From contig PHEL01000003.1 of assembly GCA_002842925.1 (NCBI GenBank), forward strand, positions 1 to 43,550: a stretch of 43,550 nt of DNA, read 5' to 3'. Origin of the DNA: Alphaproteobacteria bacterium HGW-Alphaproteobacteria-14. Its GTDB lineage: Bacteria; Pseudomonadota; Alphaproteobacteria; Sphingomonadales; Sphingomonadaceae. The notes under the pieces were generated by a model. That model was not told where the DNA came from, ran no database searches, and saw only the letters and a program-made list of their open reading frames with translations. The translations under genes were made by a program, and so were the position numbers. Shown here piece by piece: positions 28,368-35,658 of the stretch. The stretch's first letter is position 1. Each line of letters begins with the position of its first letter.

Positions 28368-28997
28368 CTACGCGACGTCCACCAACCTCAGGTAAGGCTT
28401 GATGGTTTCAAAGCCCTGCGGGAACATTTCGTTCGCCTTGGCATCGGGGATTGACGGAGGGATGATGACCTTGTCGCCCGGACGCCAATCGGCCGGGGTG
28501 GCGATGGTCATGCGGTCGGCCAGCTGCAAGCTGTCGATCACGCGCAGAATTTCATCAAAATTGCGTCCCACGCTCATCGGATAGGTCATGGTCAGGCGAA
28601 TTTTCATTTTCGGGTCGATGATGAACACCGAACGCACCGCCGCCGTCTCGCTCTGATCGGGGTGGATCATGTCATAGAGCCTGGCGATTTCCAGATCAGG
28701 GTCGGCCACGATCGGGAATGTCAGTGTCACGCCTTGTGTTTCATCGACATCCTTGACCCAGGTGAGGTGTTCTTCAACCGTATCGGTCGACAGGCCGAGC
28801 GGCTTGGTGTTGCGCTTGTCAAAGTCAGCAGCAAGGCGCGCGGTCATGCCCATTTCGGTGGTGCAGACAGGAGTGAAATCGGCCGGGTGGCTGAAAAAGA
28901 ACACCCAGCTATCGCCTGCCCAATCGTGCAGGCTGATTTCGCCGGTCGTGGTGGCGACGGTAAAGTCAGGGGCGGTATCGCCGATGTGCAGGCTCAT
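28368..28997 (-). CDS. Peroxiredoxin (1-Cys/Prx6-type AhpC/TSA)
   Basis: 'LHIGDTAPDFTVATTTGEISLHDWAGDSWVFFFSHPADFTPVCTTEMG', 'RSVFIIDPKMKIRLTMTYPMSVGRNFDEILRVIDSLQL'. Confidence 0.94.
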   Translation of the reverse strand: MSLHIGDTAPDFTVATTTGEISLHDWAGDSWVFFFSHPADFTPVCTTEMGMTARLAADFDKRNTKPLGLSTDTVEEHLTWVKDVDETQGVTLTFPIVADPDLEIARLYDMIHPDQSETAAVRSVFIIDPKMKIRLTMTYPMSVGRNFDEILRVIDSLQLADRMTIATPADWRPGDKVIIPPSIPDAKANEMFPQGFETIKPYLRLVDVA

Positions 28998-29172
28998 TAC
29001 GGATACTCCTTTGCGTTGATGCAACCGCTTTAGCAGGAGATGCGATTCTGGTATAATTCAATTACTCGATTTATGAAACCGATTTTTCAATTCTTCACGA
29101 ATGAGCTGCATTTGAGCAGATTTTGCGGACTATGGCGTGAATCGCATACAGATTTTTTATATTAAGCACCCG

Positions 29173-30930
29173 TCAGATCATCCCACGCGCGTCGAATGGA
29201 TCGGCAGGCCCCGGCGCCTCACCAGTATCGAGCGCTAATTCGGCAAAGGCGCTGTCCTGCGACAGGAACACCCGGCCTGACAGATCATCAAGGAAGTGCG
29301 CGCGCTCCAGACGGTCCATCACCGGGCCTTTCACTTCCGACAGGTGCAGCTTCACACCCCCGTCGACCAGCCTGTGGTTGATCGCCTCAAGGCTTTCCAG
29401 TCCCGAGGCATCGATCGCATTGACCGCACTGCACATCAGCACCACGTGCCGCAGCGGCGGGCGATCCGCGACCTGTTCCAGCACATATTCCTCCAGCCAG
29501 CGGGCATTGAGATAGGTCAGGCTTTCATCGATCCGGATCGACAGCAGGTGCGGCAGGGTCAGCACCTTTTGGCGTTCGACATTGCGGAAATGCTCGGTGC
29601 CCGGCACCCGCCCAACGATCGCCGCGTGGGGTCGGCTGGCGCGCCACAGATACAGCAGCAGGCCCACTGCCACCCCGGCGATCACCCCCAACTCCACCCC
29701 GGCCAGCAGCGTGATGGCGATGGTCGCGGCGTGAGCGGCGAAATCACCCTTGGAATAGGCCCAAAGCAGCCGGGGTGTCTTGAAATCGACGAGGCTCAGC
29801 ACCGCCACGATGATGGTTGCTGCGAGCGTCGCGTTGGGCAAGTGAAACAATAGCGGGGTGAGGAACAGGCTGGCGAGCGCAATGCCCACCGCCGTGAAGG
29901 CGCCCGCCGCCGGGGTCTGCGCGCCCGCATCAAAATTCACCACCGAACGCGCAAAGCCGCCGGTCACCGGATAGCCGCCCGACAGCGCCGAAGCGATATT
30001 CGATGCGCCCAATCCGATCAATTCCTGATCGGGCGCGATCCGCTGGCGCCGCTTGGCCGCGAGCGTCTGCGCAACCGAGACGCTTTCGACAAAGCCAATC
30101 ACCGAAATCAGCAGCGCTGGCACCCACAATGCCTTGATCAGGGCATATTCAGTCGAAGGCAGCGCGAACGGCGGCAGGCCCTGCGGGATTGCGCCCACTA
30201 CGGATACGCCATGTTCCTCCAGCCCAAATCCGATCACGGCGAGGATCGTCACCGCCACCGCCGCCACCGGCCCGGCCTTGGCTGTCATTTCGGCAACGCG
30301 CGCGGGCATGCCGATGCGCTGCAATGCGGGCTTCAACCCCTTGCGCACCCAGAACAGGAACAGCGTCGCTGGAACACCGATGGCGAGGGTCGCAAGGTTG
30401 GTGCCGTCCAGCGCACCTGCCAGCCCGGACAGCATCTCCGGCCAGGTCTCGCCCCCGGCCTTCACACCCAGAATGTGTTTCAACTGGCTGGTGGCAATCA
30501 GTATGCCGGAGGCCGAAATAAACCCGCTGATCACCGGGTGCGACAGCAGGTTGGCAAGGAACCCGAGCCGCAGCAGGCCCAAGACTGCCAGCATCACCCC
30601 TGACAGCGCGGCGAGCGTCACCGCCGCCTCCCAATATTCAGCCGTTCCCGGTGCAGCGACCGCGCCCACCGCGCTCGCCGTCATCAACGAAACCACCGCT
30701 ACCGGGCCAACTGCCAACGTTCGGCTGGTGCCGAACACGGCATAGGCGAACAGCGGCAGGATCGAGGCATAAAGACCGACAACAGGCGGCAATCCCGCCA
30801 GCATCGCATAGGCAAGGCTTTGCGGGATCAGCATGATGGTGACGATCACCGCCGCCATCAGATCACTGGTCAGGATACCGCGATCATAGCTGCGCGCCCA
30901 CGTCAGGATCGGGAAATAGCGTTGCAACAT
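29173..30930 (-). CDS. SulP-family anion/sulfate permease with C-terminal STAS domain
   Basis: 'YFPILTWARSYDRGILTSDLMAAVIVTIMLIPQSLAYAMLAGLPPVVGLYASILPLFAYAVFGTSRTLAVGPVAVVSLMT'; STAS 'VVLMCSAVNAIDASGLESLEAI'. Confidence 0.95.
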   Translation of the reverse strand: MLQRYFPILTWARSYDRGILTSDLMAAVIVTIMLIPQSLAYAMLAGLPPVVGLYASILPLFAYAVFGTSRTLAVGPVAVVSLMTASAVGAVAAPGTAEYWEAAVTLAALSGVMLAVLGLLRLGFLANLLSHPVISGFISASGILIATSQLKHILGVKAGGETWPEMLSGLAGALDGTNLATLAIGVPATLFLFWVRKGLKPALQRIGMPARVAEMTAKAGPVAAVAVTILAVIGFGLEEHGVSVVGAIPQGLPPFALPSTEYALIKALWVPALLISVIGFVESVSVAQTLAAKRRQRIAPDQELIGLGASNIASALSGGYPVTGGFARSVVNFDAGAQTPAAGAFTAVGIALASLFLTPLLFHLPNATLAATIIVAVLSLVDFKTPRLLWAYSKGDFAAHAATIAITLLAGVELGVIAGVAVGLLLYLWRASRPHAAIVGRVPGTEHFRNVERQKVLTLPHLLSIRIDESLTYLNARWLEEYVLEQVADRPPLRHVVLMCSAVNAIDASGLESLEAINHRLVDGGVKLHLSEVKGPVMDRLERAHFLDDLSGRVFLSQDSAFAELALDTGEAPGPADPFDARGMI

Positions 30931-30937
30931 GGCGGGT

Positions 30938-32164
30938 CTATTGTGCGATCAGACCGCCGGGGCCAGCCAGCCACTCGCGCCCCTTGAGCATCCCGTTCCA
31001 GTAAATCCACGGAAGCAGATCAGCCTTGAGCATCCATGACAGGCGGTTGGCTTTGGTGCCATCAATCAACCAGGTCGGGAAGCTCGGCGCCAGCTTGCCT
31101 CCGTATGCAAATTCGGCGAGCACGATCTTGCCGCGCTCCACCGTCAGCGGGCACGAACCATAACCGTCATACCCCGCGGTCGGCCCTTTGCAATCGAGCT
31201 GCCGCAGCGCGTTGACCGCCACCACGGGTGCCTGCTTGCGCGCGGCTGCGGCGGTCTTGGCATTGGGCATCGACCCTGCATCCCCAAGGCCAAACACGTT
31301 GGGGAAACGCACGTGCTGCAAGGTGTGCTGATCGACATCGGTAAACCCGCTTGCCGCCGCCAAGGGGCTGTCAGCAAGAAATTGCGGCGCGACCTGCGGG
31401 GGCACGACGTGGAGCATATCGAAATCGACTGTCACCTCGCCGTCCGCCCCAGCAAAAGTCGCCTTCCGTGCGGGGCCATCAACCGCAACGAGATTATTGT
31501 TGAGTTCAAGATCAATGCCGTATTTCCCGACATATTCCATCAGCGCGGGCACATAATCGGCCACCCCGAACAGCACGCCGCCTGCATTGCGAAACTCGAC
31601 CGCGATATCGCCCAAAACGCCTGCCCGCCGCCAGTGATCGCAGGCGAGATACATCACCTTTTGCGGCGCGCCCGCGCATTTGATCGGCATCGGCGGCTGA
31701 CTGAAAATCGCGCGGCCCGCCTTCAGGCCCTGCACCAGTTCCCAAGTATAAGGCGAAAGATCGCCGCGGTAATTGGACGTAACACCGTTCTGGCCAAGCG
31801 TCTGGTCAAGCCCTGCTATCTTCTCCCACGCAAGGCGAATGCCGGGGGCGACGATCAGCACGTCGTAGGTCAAGGTGCTGCCATCGGCGAGTGTCACCTG
31901 ATTATCGTCTGGCTGGAAACTGGCCGCTGCCTGTTTGATCCAGACCGCACCCTTTGGAATTACGCTTTTCATCGGACGCAGCGTTGATGCCAGATCGAAA
32001 ACCCCGCCGCCAACCATCGTCCAACCGGGCTGGTAGGTATGGGTATCAGTCGGCTCGACAATCGCAATATCGAGCCCCGGCCTGCGCTTCAGTATCGAAG
32101 CCGCAGCAGCAATCCCTGCCGCGCCGCCGCCGATGACAACGACCGTGTGTGATGACGTGTTCAT
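30938..32164 (-). CDS. sqr: Sulfide:quinone oxidoreductase-like FAD protein
   Basis: 'TVVVIGGGAAGIAAAASILKRRPGLDIAIVEPTDTHTYQPGWTMVGGGVF', 'MPIKCAGAPQKVMYLACDHWRR', 'DCKGPTAGYDGYGSCPLTVERGKIVLAEFAYGG'. ATG at 32164. Confidence 0.92.
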   Translation of the reverse strand: MNTSSHTVVVIGGGAAGIAAAASILKRRPGLDIAIVEPTDTHTYQPGWTMVGGGVFDLASTLRPMKSVIPKGAVWIKQAAASFQPDDNQVTLADGSTLTYDVLIVAPGIRLAWEKIAGLDQTLGQNGVTSNYRGDLSPYTWELVQGLKAGRAIFSQPPMPIKCAGAPQKVMYLACDHWRRAGVLGDIAVEFRNAGGVLFGVADYVPALMEYVGKYGIDLELNNNLVAVDGPARKATFAGADGEVTVDFDMLHVVPPQVAPQFLADSPLAAASGFTDVDQHTLQHVRFPNVFGLGDAGSMPNAKTAAAARKQAPVVAVNALRQLDCKGPTAGYDGYGSCPLTVERGKIVLAEFAYGGKLAPSFPTWLIDGTKANRLSWMLKADLLPWIYWNGMLKGREWLAGPGGLIAQ

Positions 32165-32189: not shown

Positions 32190-32609
32190 TTATGCGCCAG
32201 CTTCCATCCGTTCGCTAAGCGCCGACAAGTCGTAGCCAGCGGCCTTCGCGCGCGTGATGCGTTCTTGGGTTGAAAGGCCACTGGTATTGGCGAGCGCATC
32301 AAGCGTGATTGAACGCGTGCCAGTGCGGCAATAGGCGAGCACCTTGCCGAATGTGCCACGCCGCACCGCAGCAAAGGCCGCGATGGCAGCTGCCGGGAAC
32401 AGGCCACCGGCAACGGGAATGTGGTGGAAGGCCAGCCCGGCGACCTGCGCGGCGCGGCGCATATCATCCAGCGCGGGCTGTCCCGGTTCTTCGCCATCGG
32501 GGCGGTTGCAGATCACGGCGGCGAAGCCTTCGGCAGCCAGCGCCGCCAGTTCGCAAGGCTGCATCTGCGGCGCGACCGCGAAACTATCATCAAGCTTGCG
32601 AATTTCCAT
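32190..32609 (-). CDS. DUF442/TIGR01244-type (Blh N-terminal-like) phosphatase-fold protein
   Basis: 'MEIRKLDDSFAVAPQMQPCELAALAAEGFAAVICNRPDGEEPGQP', 'GKVLAYCRTGTRS'. Confidence 0.85.
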   Translation of the reverse strand: MEIRKLDDSFAVAPQMQPCELAALAAEGFAAVICNRPDGEEPGQPALDDMRRAAQVAGLAFHHIPVAGGLFPAAAIAAFAAVRRGTFGKVLAYCRTGTRSITLDALANTSGLSTQERITRAKAAGYDLSALSERMEAGA

Positions 32610-33028
32610 CACGCCTGTCCTTCAATAACGCGCACCACAACCATCCCGGCGAGCATCGCAGCCACAAACACGGCGGCCGATACAGGTTCAATCGCCAAAG
32701 CGGCAAAGCCCGGCCCCGGACACAGCCCAGCGATCCCCCAGCCGACCCCGAACAAGGCCGATCCGCCGACAAGGCGCGGCGTAATGTCGCTGCGGTCGGG
32801 TAGTGAAAAGCCTTCAGCGAACCAGGGACGCAGCAACTTGCCCTGCACCAGCCACGCCGCCGCCATCACCAGCACCGCGCCGCCCATCACAAAGGCAAGC
32901 GTCGGATCCCAGGCTCCGAACAGATCGAGGAATCCGCGCACCCGCGCCGGATCGGTCATCCCGCCCAGCGCCAGTCCGGCGCCGAAGATCGTGCCCGAAG
33001 CGAGTGGAATGAGAATGCCTCTGATCAC
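32609..33028 (-). CDS. YeeE/YedE-family (DUF395) transporter protein, second half-module
   Basis: 'IRGILIPLASGTIFGAGLALGGMTDPARVRGFLDLFGAWDPTLAFVMGGAV', 'FGVGWGIAGLCPGPGFAALA'; GTG at 33028. Confidence 0.88.
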   Translation of the reverse strand: MIRGILIPLASGTIFGAGLALGGMTDPARVRGFLDLFGAWDPTLAFVMGGAVLVMAAAWLVQGKLLRPWFAEGFSLPDRSDITPRLVGGSALFGVGWGIAGLCPGPGFAALAIEPVSAAVFVAAMLAGMVVVRVIEGQA

Positions 33029-33489
33029 AGCAATACCTCGATTCCCAGTCCGTTCATAATAGCCACCGTGGCAATGCCCGTGGCGATAAAGGTCGCGGTT
33101 GCCACCAGTGACCGCTGCGACAGGCGGCTCATCCCGCACACCCCGTGGCCGCTGGTGCAGCCACCGCCGAGACGGGTTCCGATACCGACGATCAACCCGG
33201 CAATGATCAGCGGCGCTGGCCCGGCAAAGCTTGGTTCTGCCGCGCCAGTCATTCCCGTCACAATCAGCGCGCCCAATGGAAGGCCGATCAGAAACGCCCA
33301 TGCTCCGCGCCGCGGCATCGATCCCGCGCCGATCCCGAAAGCCCGCGCAGCAATGCCGGAAACCCCGGCAATCCGCCCTGCCCCCAGCAGCATCAGCGCC
33401 GCTGCGAGCCCGATCAACACCCCGCCCGCAAGGCCTGCGACCGGAGTGGAATCGGGGAAACCCGGCAGACTGATAGCCAGCACGCTCAT
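33025..33489 (-). CDS. YeeE/YedE-family (DUF395) transporter protein, first half-module
   Basis: 'GVLIGLAAALMLLGAGRIAGVSGIAARAF', 'IVGIGTRLGGGCTSGHGVCGMSRLSQRS'. Confidence 0.9.
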   Translation of the reverse strand: MSVLAISLPGFPDSTPVAGLAGGVLIGLAAALMLLGAGRIAGVSGIAARAFGIGAGSMPRRGAWAFLIGLPLGALIVTGMTGAAEPSFAGPAPLIIAGLIVGIGTRLGGGCTSGHGVCGMSRLSQRSLVATATFIATGIATVAIMNGLGIEVLL

Positions 33490-34424
33490 ACCGCGTTGAT
33501 CGGCAGTTGGAGGTAGGTGATGCCGTTGTCATCGGGCGGCGGCAGATGTCCGGCGCGCATATTGACCTGCACCGAAGGCAGGATCAACCGCGGCATGTCG
33601 AGCGTCGCATCGCGCGCCTCGCGCATGGCGACAAATTCATCTTCGGTGATCCCGTCATGGGCGTGGATATTGCCCTCACGCTCAGCGGCGACGGTGGTTT
33701 CCCAGACATATTCACTGCGCCCCTTGGGCAGATAATCGTGGCACATGAACAGCCGGGTTTCGAGGGGGAGCGCCAGAATGCGCCGTAGCGAGCGGAACAG
33801 ATTGCGCGCATCACCGCCGGGAAAATCAGCACGCGCGGTGCCGTAATCGGGCATGAACATCGTATCGCCGACAAACACTGCCTCACCAACTACATAGGCC
33901 AGACAAGCCGGCGTATGCCCAGGAACGTGCATTACTGTAACCGGCACGTTGCCGATCGTGAACGTGTCGCCATCCTTGAACAAGGCATCGAACTGCGATC
34001 CGTCGCGTTCAAATTCGGCCCCGGCATTGAACAGCTTGCCAAACACCTGCTGCACCTTGGTGATATGTTCGCCAATCGCGATCTTCCCGCCAAGCTTCTG
34101 CTGGAGGTAAGGCGCGGCTGAAAGGTGATCGGCATGGGCGTGGGTTTCAAGCAGCCATATCACTTTAAGATTATGCGAAGTGATGTAATCAATCACAGCA
34201 TCGGCAGAAGTCGTAGCAGTGCGCCCGGAGCTGAAATCAAAATCCAACACCGAATCGACAATCGCCGCCTCGCCCGTCGCGGGATCGTGAACCACGTAGG
34301 TGACCGTGAATGTCGCGGCATCGAAGAAGCCGGCGATTACAGGACGTAGCGCGATGTCGCTTCCTGTGCGAAGCACCTGTTCTGTCGCCATCTGCAGCAC
34401 CGAATCGTCGCTGGGCATATCCAT
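33486..34424 (-). CDS. MBL-fold hydrolase, persulfide dioxygenase/Blh C-terminal-like
   Basis: 'AIVDSVLDFDFSSGRTATTSADAVIDYITSHNLKVIWLLETHAHADHLSAAPYLQQKLGGKIAIGEHI', 'VMHVPGHTPACLAYVVGEAVFVGDTMFMPDYGTARADFPGGDARNLFRSL'. Confidence 0.93.
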   Translation of the reverse strand: MDMPSDDSVLQMATEQVLRTGSDIALRPVIAGFFDAATFTVTYVVHDPATGEAAIVDSVLDFDFSSGRTATTSADAVIDYITSHNLKVIWLLETHAHADHLSAAPYLQQKLGGKIAIGEHITKVQQVFGKLFNAGAEFERDGSQFDALFKDGDTFTIGNVPVTVMHVPGHTPACLAYVVGEAVFVGDTMFMPDYGTARADFPGGDARNLFRSLRRILALPLETRLFMCHDYLPKGRSEYVWETTVAAEREGNIHAHDGITEDEFVAMREARDATLDMPRLILPSVQVNMRAGHLPPPDDNGITYLQLPINAV

Positions 34425-34436
34425 TCTCCAATTCAA

Positions 34437-34457
34437 TTTCATAAATTATGTATATGA
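34437..34457. promoter_or_regulatory. Candidate operator in the divergent MBL/peroxiredoxin promoter
   Basis: AT-rich palindrome CATAA-A-TTATG (34440-34450), with a second inverted repeat TCATA (34439-34443)/TATGA (34453-34457). Confidence 0.45.
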
Positions 34458-34492: not shown

Positions 34493-35143
34493 ATGAATGA
34501 TCACACCCATACTCCTCCGCCTTGCGCGGGCCTGCGGATTGGTGACGTCGCCCCGGATTTCGAGGCACGCAGCACAATCGGCCCGGTCCGGTTGTCGAAC
34601 TTTAGAAAACGCTGGCTGGTGCTGTTTTCACATCCGGCGGACTTCACCCCTGTCTGCACTACCGAATTCGTTGCGCTCGCCCGCGAAGCTGCTGCCTTCG
34701 AAACGCGCGACTGTGCATTGATGGCACTATCGGTCGACAGCCTGTTTTCGCATTTCGCATGGCTGCGCATGATCCGCGACCGCTTCGGCATCGAAGTGCG
34801 GTTCCCGATCGTCGAAGATCCCACTCTGGTGATCGGACGGGCGTTCGGCATGGTGTCCGCGCAGGATAATGACAGCGCGACAGTGCGCACCACCTTCTTC
34901 ATCGATCCGCGTGGTGTCATCCGGGCGATGACATGTTATCCGGCTAATCTTGGCCGTTCGGTGCCCGAAATGCTGCGCATCCTTGACGGGCTTCAGGCCA
35001 TTGATGCGAACACGGCATTGGCGCCGGCCAACTGGCAGCCGGGCGAGCCGCTGCTCAGTCCGCCAACCAATGACCTGGATGAGGTCTTCGCGGCCGAAGA
35101 TCCGACCAGTTGGTTCCTGCGCAATCCCGGGGAACAGCGTTGA
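34493..35143 (+). CDS. Peroxiredoxin (AhpC/TSA, 1-Cys-like)
   Basis: 'LRIGDVAPDFEARSTIGPVRLSNFRKRWLVLFSHPADFTPVCTTEFVALARE', 'TTFFIDPRGVIRAMTCYPANLGRSVPEMLRILDGLQ'. Confidence 0.93.
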   Translation: MNDHTHTPPPCAGLRIGDVAPDFEARSTIGPVRLSNFRKRWLVLFSHPADFTPVCTTEFVALAREAAAFETRDCALMALSVDSLFSHFAWLRMIRDRFGIEVRFPIVEDPTLVIGRAFGMVSAQDNDSATVRTTFFIDPRGVIRAMTCYPANLGRSVPEMLRILDGLQAIDANTALAPANWQPGEPLLSPPTNDLDEVFAAEDPTSWFLRNPGEQR

Positions 35144-35499
35144 TGGCCGAAGATGATCTGATCGAGGCGCTTAAAGCCCTTGCCCATCCGCTGCGCTGGC
35201 GCATTCTTGTGACGCTCGCAGCGGGCGAACGCAATGTCGGTGAGGTCGAACACGCGACCGGGATCGGTCAACCGGGCCTGTCTCAACAACTCGGCGTGCT
35301 GCGCAAGGCTGGTCTGGTCAATACCCGCAAGGATGCAAAGCTGGTGTTCTATTCTCTGGCAGAAAGCGCGCTGGCGGGCGTAACTGCTGCAATGGCCGCA
35401 CTCGTATCGGCAGAAAGCCGCCCCGCGCCAGAACCTGAAGCGCCACACACCCCCGCCCCCGGCGTCGCCAATTTCGCCCGGTTGTCCAAAATCACATAG
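35143..35499 (+). CDS. ArsR/SmtB-family winged-helix repressor, BigR/SqrR-like but cysteine-free
   Basis: 'LIEALKALAHPLRWRILVTLAAGERNVGEVEHATGIGQPGLSQQLGVLRKAGLVNTRKDAKLVFYSL'; TGATG overlap with the peroxiredoxin; no Cys in the translation. Confidence 0.92.
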   Translation: MAEDDLIEALKALAHPLRWRILVTLAAGERNVGEVEHATGIGQPGLSQQLGVLRKAGLVNTRKDAKLVFYSLAESALAGVTAAMAALVSAESRPAPEPEAPHTPAPGVANFARLSKIT

Positions 35500-35581: not shown

Positions 35582-35658
35582 TGGCGCGCCCGGCAGGACT
35601 CGAACCTGCTACCTCAAGATTAGAAGTCTCGCGCTCTATCCAGATGAGCTACGGGCGC
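35582..35658 (-). tRNA. tRNA-Arg (anticodon TCT), CCA encoded
   Basis: Minus strand GCGCCCGTAGCTCATCTGGATAGAGCGCGAGACTTCTAATCTTGAGGTAGCAGGTTCGAGTCCTGCCGGGCGCGCCA folds as a cloverleaf: acceptor GCGCCCG/CGGGCGC, anticodon loop CTTCTAA, T-loop TTCGAGT. Confidence 0.96.

Follow-up and report, generated by a model that had tools for sequence, protein, structure and literature searches.

How a sulfide-oxidation module can be regulated by a repressor that contains no cysteine is the question raised by the locus described here, which lies in a stretch of 43,550 nucleotides (the window) from an alphaproteobacterium of the family Sphingomonadaceae. Persulfide sensors of the SqrR/BigR type (SSN cluster 4) are defined by a pair of Cys residues, in helices alpha2 and alpha5, that forms a polysulfide bridge (PMC10509353), and according to a review of the family every known persulfide-sensing ArsR makes use of a Cys pair in the repressor. 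The initial annotation of the window held that an ArsR protein without any Cys, translationally coupled to a peroxiredoxin (Prx) and divergent from an MBL-YeeE-YeeE-DUF442-SQR operon, occupies the position of BigR/SqrR, that its helix-turn-helix (HTH) is close to this family, and that the canonical Cys switch cannot operate in it. Our analyses agree on each of these points: the translation of 35143-35499 contains 0 Cys in 118 amino acids (aa), the TGA stop codon of the Prx gene (35141-35143) overlaps the ATG start codon of ArsR (35143-35145) by 1 base, and the divergent operon is present as described, except that the second "YeeE" is DUF6691. The features under discussion are summarized in Table 1.

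Table 1. Features of the ArsR locus and of the divergent sulfur module (positions are those of the window).
Feature	Position	Strand	Evidence
Cys-free ArsR/SmtB-type repressor, 118 aa	35143..35499	+	PF01022 and NF033788 matches; BigR equivalog NF040642 below cut-off
Val23 codon, equivalent of the first (alpha2) BigR/SqrR sensor Cys	35209..35211	+	Alignments; context RILVTL
Ser89 codon, corresponding to the second sensor Cys (alpha5)	35407..35409	+	Alignments; context ALVSAES
C-terminal conserved tail, residues 106-114 (PGVANFARL), a proposed docking peptide for Prx	35458..35484	+	Alignment
Co-operonic Prx, 216 aa, AhpC/TSA with 1-cysPrx_C; Cp = Cys55; also Cys11, Cys74, Cys148	34493..35143	+	
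Proposed operator, inverted repeat CATAAA-TTATG-TATATG, divergent MBL/Prx promoter	34440..34456	.	Family conservation
MBL-fold protein, homologous to Blh dioxygenase domain (persulfide dioxygenase type)	33486..34442	-	NF040641 residues 138-422, 393 bits
YeeE/YedE sulfur transporter half	33025..33489	-	PF04143
DUF6691, second YeeE-like transporter half	32609..33028	-	PF20398
DUF442/TIGR01244 sulfur transferase, the N-terminal Blh domain as its own gene	32190..32612	-	PF04273, TIGR01244
SQR-like flavoprotein (sulfide:quinone oxidoreductase)	30938..32161	-	NF049943 (SQR III) 201 bits, cut-off 525 not reached
SulP-type permease, 7 bp after SQR	29173..30930	-	ORF; annotation of Blastomonas fulva relative

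The ArsR protein is recognized by the winged-helix model PF01022 (HTH_5; 37.4 bits, cut-off 22) and by NF033788 (78.6 bits, cut-off 55), and it falls short of the BigR equivalog NF040642 (78 bits, cut-off 155). Its closest solved structure is Xylella BigR (3pqj; E 1.2e-20), and its HTH (GIGQPGLSQQLGVLR) differs from that of BigR (GIGQPTLSQQLGVLR) at 1 residue, such that both the nearest characterized sequence (XfBigR) and the recognition helix place it with SqrR/BigR, as do neighboring genes for a sulfurtransferase, a dioxygenase and an inorganic sulfur transporter. The Cys pair is lacking; the BigR alignment gives Val23 and Ser89 in its place, the very residues named in the initial annotation, and the dithiol/tetrasulfide switch cannot work in this protein. 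Lacking the Cys pair by which the BigR/SqrR persulfide sensors are defined, the protein cannot be filed among them and represents a variant of the SqrR/BigR type. Sequence comparisons support its description as SqrR/BigR-like, with BigR-like proteins as its nearest relatives, and not its placement in a non-sulfur ArsR subfamily, which would have contradicted the earlier reading. It is also a member of a group that we define here, the Prx-linked tailed ArsRs, by an AxFA[RK] tail and a Prx gene directly upstream. The AlphaFold2 model of ArsR alone (mean pLDDT 54) was left unused.

Two other readings of the protein could be dismissed from its sequence relatives. A degenerating pseudogene is ruled out by the purifying selection acting on the gene, and a metal sensor was rejected for lack of ligands, the protein having no Cys and no alpha3 CxC, and no conserved alpha5 His/Asp/Glu ligand set of the SmtB/ArsR metalloregulators being found in 65 Cys-free relatives. 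The latter result bears equally on the more general idea that a non-thiol ligand (metal, heme or small metabolite) is sensed directly at the dimer interface, with the C-terminal tail as a lid. The ArsR fold often binds ligands at alpha3 or alpha5 and a flexible tail could shut such a pocket; against this, there is no known metal site in the absence of conserved alpha5 His/Asp/Glu/Cys residues and of an alpha3 CxC, and alpha5 is the least conserved helix of the protein, which makes direct sensing of this kind quite unlikely.

The sulfide operon divergent from the Prx and ArsR genes is probably longer than first described, continuing into the SulP gene and perhaps into a second Prx gene. In the Blastomonas fulva module, sulP likewise adjoins SQR. 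The second Prx (28368-29024), which comes after SulP, is a different protein, 41% identical to the first. On the other side, a tRNA-Arg gene (anticodon tct; 35582-35658, minus strand) lies directly 3' of the ArsR gene, and the Rfam matches were to tRNA only. The true start of the MBL gene is probably the ATG at 34424, since it is preceded by GGAG; the longest ORF start, 34442, lies within the proposed operator. The Prx start at 34493 was likewise chosen, from family alignments, over a longer ORF start (34448) that falls within the operator.

Dozens of genomes in the family show the gene order of the module, and therefore the arrangement is not due to chance. ArsR relatives were found in 160 of the 401 genomes searched (Sphingomonadaceae in the broad sense), and in 80 loci viewed in their 14-kb context the Prx gene is directly upstream in nearly all and the divergent sulfur operon is present in most; the module is thus common in the Sphingomonadaceae/Erythrobacteraceae. 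Named relatives are encoded on plasmids of Blastomonas fulva (WP_117353798.1) and Qipengyuania citrea (WP_301643166.1) and on pISP1 of Sphingomonas sp. MM-1 (WP_015460555.1, adjoining trxC and two Prx genes). At this last locus (L282, 1759-3348) the tailed ArsR with its Prx lies next to the thioredoxin gene trxC and another Prx gene, in divergent arrangement, a context that suggests a redox rather than a purely sulfide setting in some members.

The absence of the sensor Cys residues is not peculiar to this ArsR. Neither Cys is present in 66 of the 109 distinct Prx-linked ArsRs; 21 have one (alpha5 only in 16, alpha2 only in 5) and 22 have both, whereas both are present in 37 of the 43 unlinked relatives from the first batch; stated otherwise, at least one Cys is missing from 87/109 Prx-linked but from only 6/43 unlinked proteins. 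The Cys residues of tailed ArsRs were scored by helix rather than by exact column, their positions being shifted in several two-Cys members. Five of these (L112, L114, L116, L118 and L192) carry the alpha2 Cys 1 residue later and the alpha5 Cys about 2 turns earlier than BigR, a shifted dithiol without counterpart among the characterized members compared. Three Prx-linked ArsRs of another family (L177, L217 and L220) similarly have no Cys pair, and the loss has therefore occurred more than once. Because the loss is widespread and patchy among Prx-linked ArsRs, it is, as judged from these alignments, a family-level lineage trait of the Sphingomonadaceae/Erythrobacteraceae. Many sHdrR-like regulators encoded near shdr genes also have no Cys pair and may have other modes of action, and the accessible portion of their description does not include a tail, a Prx pairing or a mechanism (PMC12423496).

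Overall, the initial interpretation stands in regard to position, SqrR/BigR likeness and the inoperative switch, but it overlooked this family-level loss as well as a conserved C-terminal tail. The tail motif, A-x-F-A-[RK]-[LIMV], follows a variable linker at the C-terminus of ArsR, and in the aligned homologs A109 is present in 81/81 and F111 and A112 in 80/81. Within the Cys-free group the tail (3.37 bits per column) is conserved nearly as strongly as the HTH (3.51), whereas alpha5 (1.63) and the linker (1.37) are nearly free to vary. The codons for the tail Ala and Phe show synonymous variation, from which it follows that selection acts on the peptide. By comparison, most BigR-like proteins without a neighboring Prx end shortly past the second Cys and are tailless.

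The tail or a close variant of it is found in 112 of 113 Prx-linked ArsRs and in 0 of 98 unlinked ones. When sulfur genes (MBL/YeeE/SQR within 2.5 kb) are also considered, it is present in 94/94 linked proteins with such genes and 18/19 linked proteins without them, as against 0/31 and 0/67 for the corresponding unlinked proteins. The tail, hence, tracks the Prx gene and not the sulfur genes. The motif was defined after the first batch, in which its strict form occurs in 105/109 Prx-linked proteins, 3 more having the variant AAxFPT[VI] and L138 being ambiguous, and it was then widened slightly to admit these FP variants. As the profile used for searching derives from tailed proteins, it favors tailed hits, but it cannot render unlinked ones tailless; among 60 loci sampled later without regard to tail or Prx, the tail or its variant is present in 3/3 linked and 0/57 unlinked proteins. 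One apparent case of a tail without Prx (L115) was rejected, the Prx gene being adjacent once a wrongly placed start codon was recognized, and another tailed protein (L207) sits at a contig end with its upstream gene beyond the sequence. In L127, L130, L133 and L256, which are from other families, FP replaces FA in the tail (AAxFPT[VI], ATVFPAV), and this variant could be the sign of a different Prx groove. Neither the tail nor the Prx pairing was found described in the open literature, a search that covered few subscription papers.

Taken at the gene level, these comparisons support a functional tie between the tail and Prx. It could be argued that the tail recruits some other partner (a protease adaptor, RNA polymerase or another redox protein), Prx being an operon bystander, as short conserved C-terminal peptides often have such roles and the exact C-terminus varies. 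However, a housekeeping partner fails to explain why the tail is absent from all 98 Prx-unlinked relatives, and a C-degron is at odds with several members in which the motif stops short of the very C-terminus; we accordingly regard recruitment of another partner as very improbable.

Phylogenetic analysis of 136 proteins together with XfBigR, based on 77 columns, gave a weakly supported tree with approximately 8 changes in Prx linkage and, with the motif coded more strictly, 6 in the tail. Of 5 independent pairs with support, an average of 3.8 have the tail changing in step with Prx and none has it changing in the opposite direction, although fewer than 6 pairs are too few for significance in a sign test. 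Inside the tailed clade, L119 (6974-7246, minus strand) has neither tail nor Prx and retains one Cys at a BigR position; this paralog lies divergent from cydAB-like (cytochrome bd) genes. The tree is of relevance to the view that the protein is a ligand-independent autorepressor, which holds its own operon at a low basal level, the tail serving structure or solubility and the Prx link reflecting shared ancestry. The small number of supported changes is compatible with this view, as is the lack of any conserved sensor residue in alpha2 or alpha5. On the other hand, the tail is gained and lost with Prx and not with sulfur genes, and a structural tail would need no adjacent Prx, while L119 is without both; such an autorepressor is, in our estimation, rather unlikely. 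Of the three options originally offered (constitutive, responsive to another ligand, or dependent on Prx), the last has gained comparative support, and the first is less likely because the HTH, the tail and an operator-like repeat are all conserved.

This repeat, CATAWA-N5-TWTATG, occurs in the intergenic regions between MBL and Prx in exact form in 27/61 cases and with at most 1 mismatch in 41/61, and in none of the shuffled sequences, but, in regions that are related to one another and include promoter sequence, conservation is not in itself proof of an operator. Two-Cys members have similar, weaker sites. A sigma70 scan of the divergent promoter returned no match. In the host genome (2.75 Mb, 95%-complete) the only exact copy is the one at this promoter, an observation that speaks against control of the module by a separate thiol regulator encoded elsewhere, to which this ArsR would be secondary. 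A sigma54-type FisR is conceivable in that role, and a single CsoR-family gene is present; however, the CsoR-family protein scores best against the copper-sensor family, below its cut-off, and its gene lies beside a DUF305-like gene, for which reason a CstR-like regulator was rejected. A second BigR was rejected as well: no two-Cys BigR/SqrR was found elsewhere in this genome, which is 95%-complete, and none is among the BigR-like matches next in score (48, 46, 23 and 12 bits). The finding that the initial annotation had named as fatal to its interpretation did not materialize. We consider a separate regulator extremely improbable.

The partner Prx is a 1-Cys/Prx6-like AhpC/TSA protein in which Cys55 is invariant, and its gene overlaps that of ArsR in 79/109 distinct cases. 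Peroxidatic Cys residues can be persulfidated (PMC9995734). Because the conserved tail occurs only beside a Prx gene, our results suggest that the partner Prx now senses in place of ArsR. We propose, as the most parsimonious account and with about an even chance of being correct, that the protein is a SqrR/BigR-derived autoregulatory repressor whose AxFAR tail docks the translationally coupled Prx as a thiol/persulfide sensor. ArsR would repress its own divergent sulfide-oxidation module by binding the conserved repeat between MBL and Prx, and, both sensor Cys being gone, persulfide would no longer be sensed by ArsR itself. The tail, on its flexible linker, would dock the stoichiometric, co-translated Prx, the reactive Cys of which may read persulfide or peroxide, and the oxidation or persulfidation state of Prx would then alter, in one direction or the other, the occupancy of the operator. 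Docking of Prx may have rendered the repressor's own Cys dispensable; the tail itself did not arise to replace Cys, since two-Cys tailed ArsRs exist. Besides the tail and its link to Prx, the proposal is favored by the overlap of the two genes, the concentration of Cys loss in Prx-linked ArsRs, the single exact operator copy in the genome and the distribution of Cys148 in the partner Prx (55/66 for Cys-free versus 3/22 for two-Cys ArsRs), although this last correlation is confounded by clade and may reflect clade history. Counted against it are the two-Cys tailed proteins, the short alignment with its weakly supported tree, and the Rhodobacter capsulatus result described below.

The proposed arrangement can be compared with known systems. 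In yeast, the thiol peroxidase Orp1/Gpx3 serves as the receptor for the transcription factor Yap1, to which a disulfide is relayed. The peroxidase would similarly be the receptor here, but a Cys-free ArsR cannot accept a relayed disulfide and therefore its coupling to Prx must be by binding. BigR of Xylella fastidiosa and Acinetobacter baumannii (3pqj) shares the ArsR fold, a nearly identical recognition helix and neighbors encoding YeeE/YedE, a Blh-type dioxygenase and a sulfur transferase, whereas the present protein is without both sensor Cys, has an added C-terminal linker and AxFAR tail and follows a Prx gene, the Blh domains here being split over two genes in a divergent SQR operon. SqrR of R. 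capsulatus (6o8l) is also a SqrR/BigR-like ArsR with SQR as its likely target and a peroxiredoxin, rcc00528, in its regulon; unlike the present ArsR, it has both Cys and works via a Cys41-Cys107 tetrasulfide, and its Prx is dispensable, deletion of rcc00528 having left sulfide induction unaltered (PMC9995734).

More tentatively, and with somewhat more doubt than confidence, the locus may exemplify a two-protein redox/persulfide sensor of several alphaproteobacterial families, in which Prx would be the receptor for a thiol-free ArsR through reversible docking of the tail, without disulfide relay, the repressor thiols having been lost secondarily in the Sphingomonadaceae. An ArsR cannot be called a dithiol persulfide sensor just because its gene lies beside SQR or a dioxygenase, and the AxFA[RK] tail provides a sequence signature by which the Prx-linked group can be annotated. 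With a large natural group of Cys-free repressors that is under selection and is tied by a peptide to Prx, the transfer of sensing from a repressor to its partner enzyme becomes directly testable.
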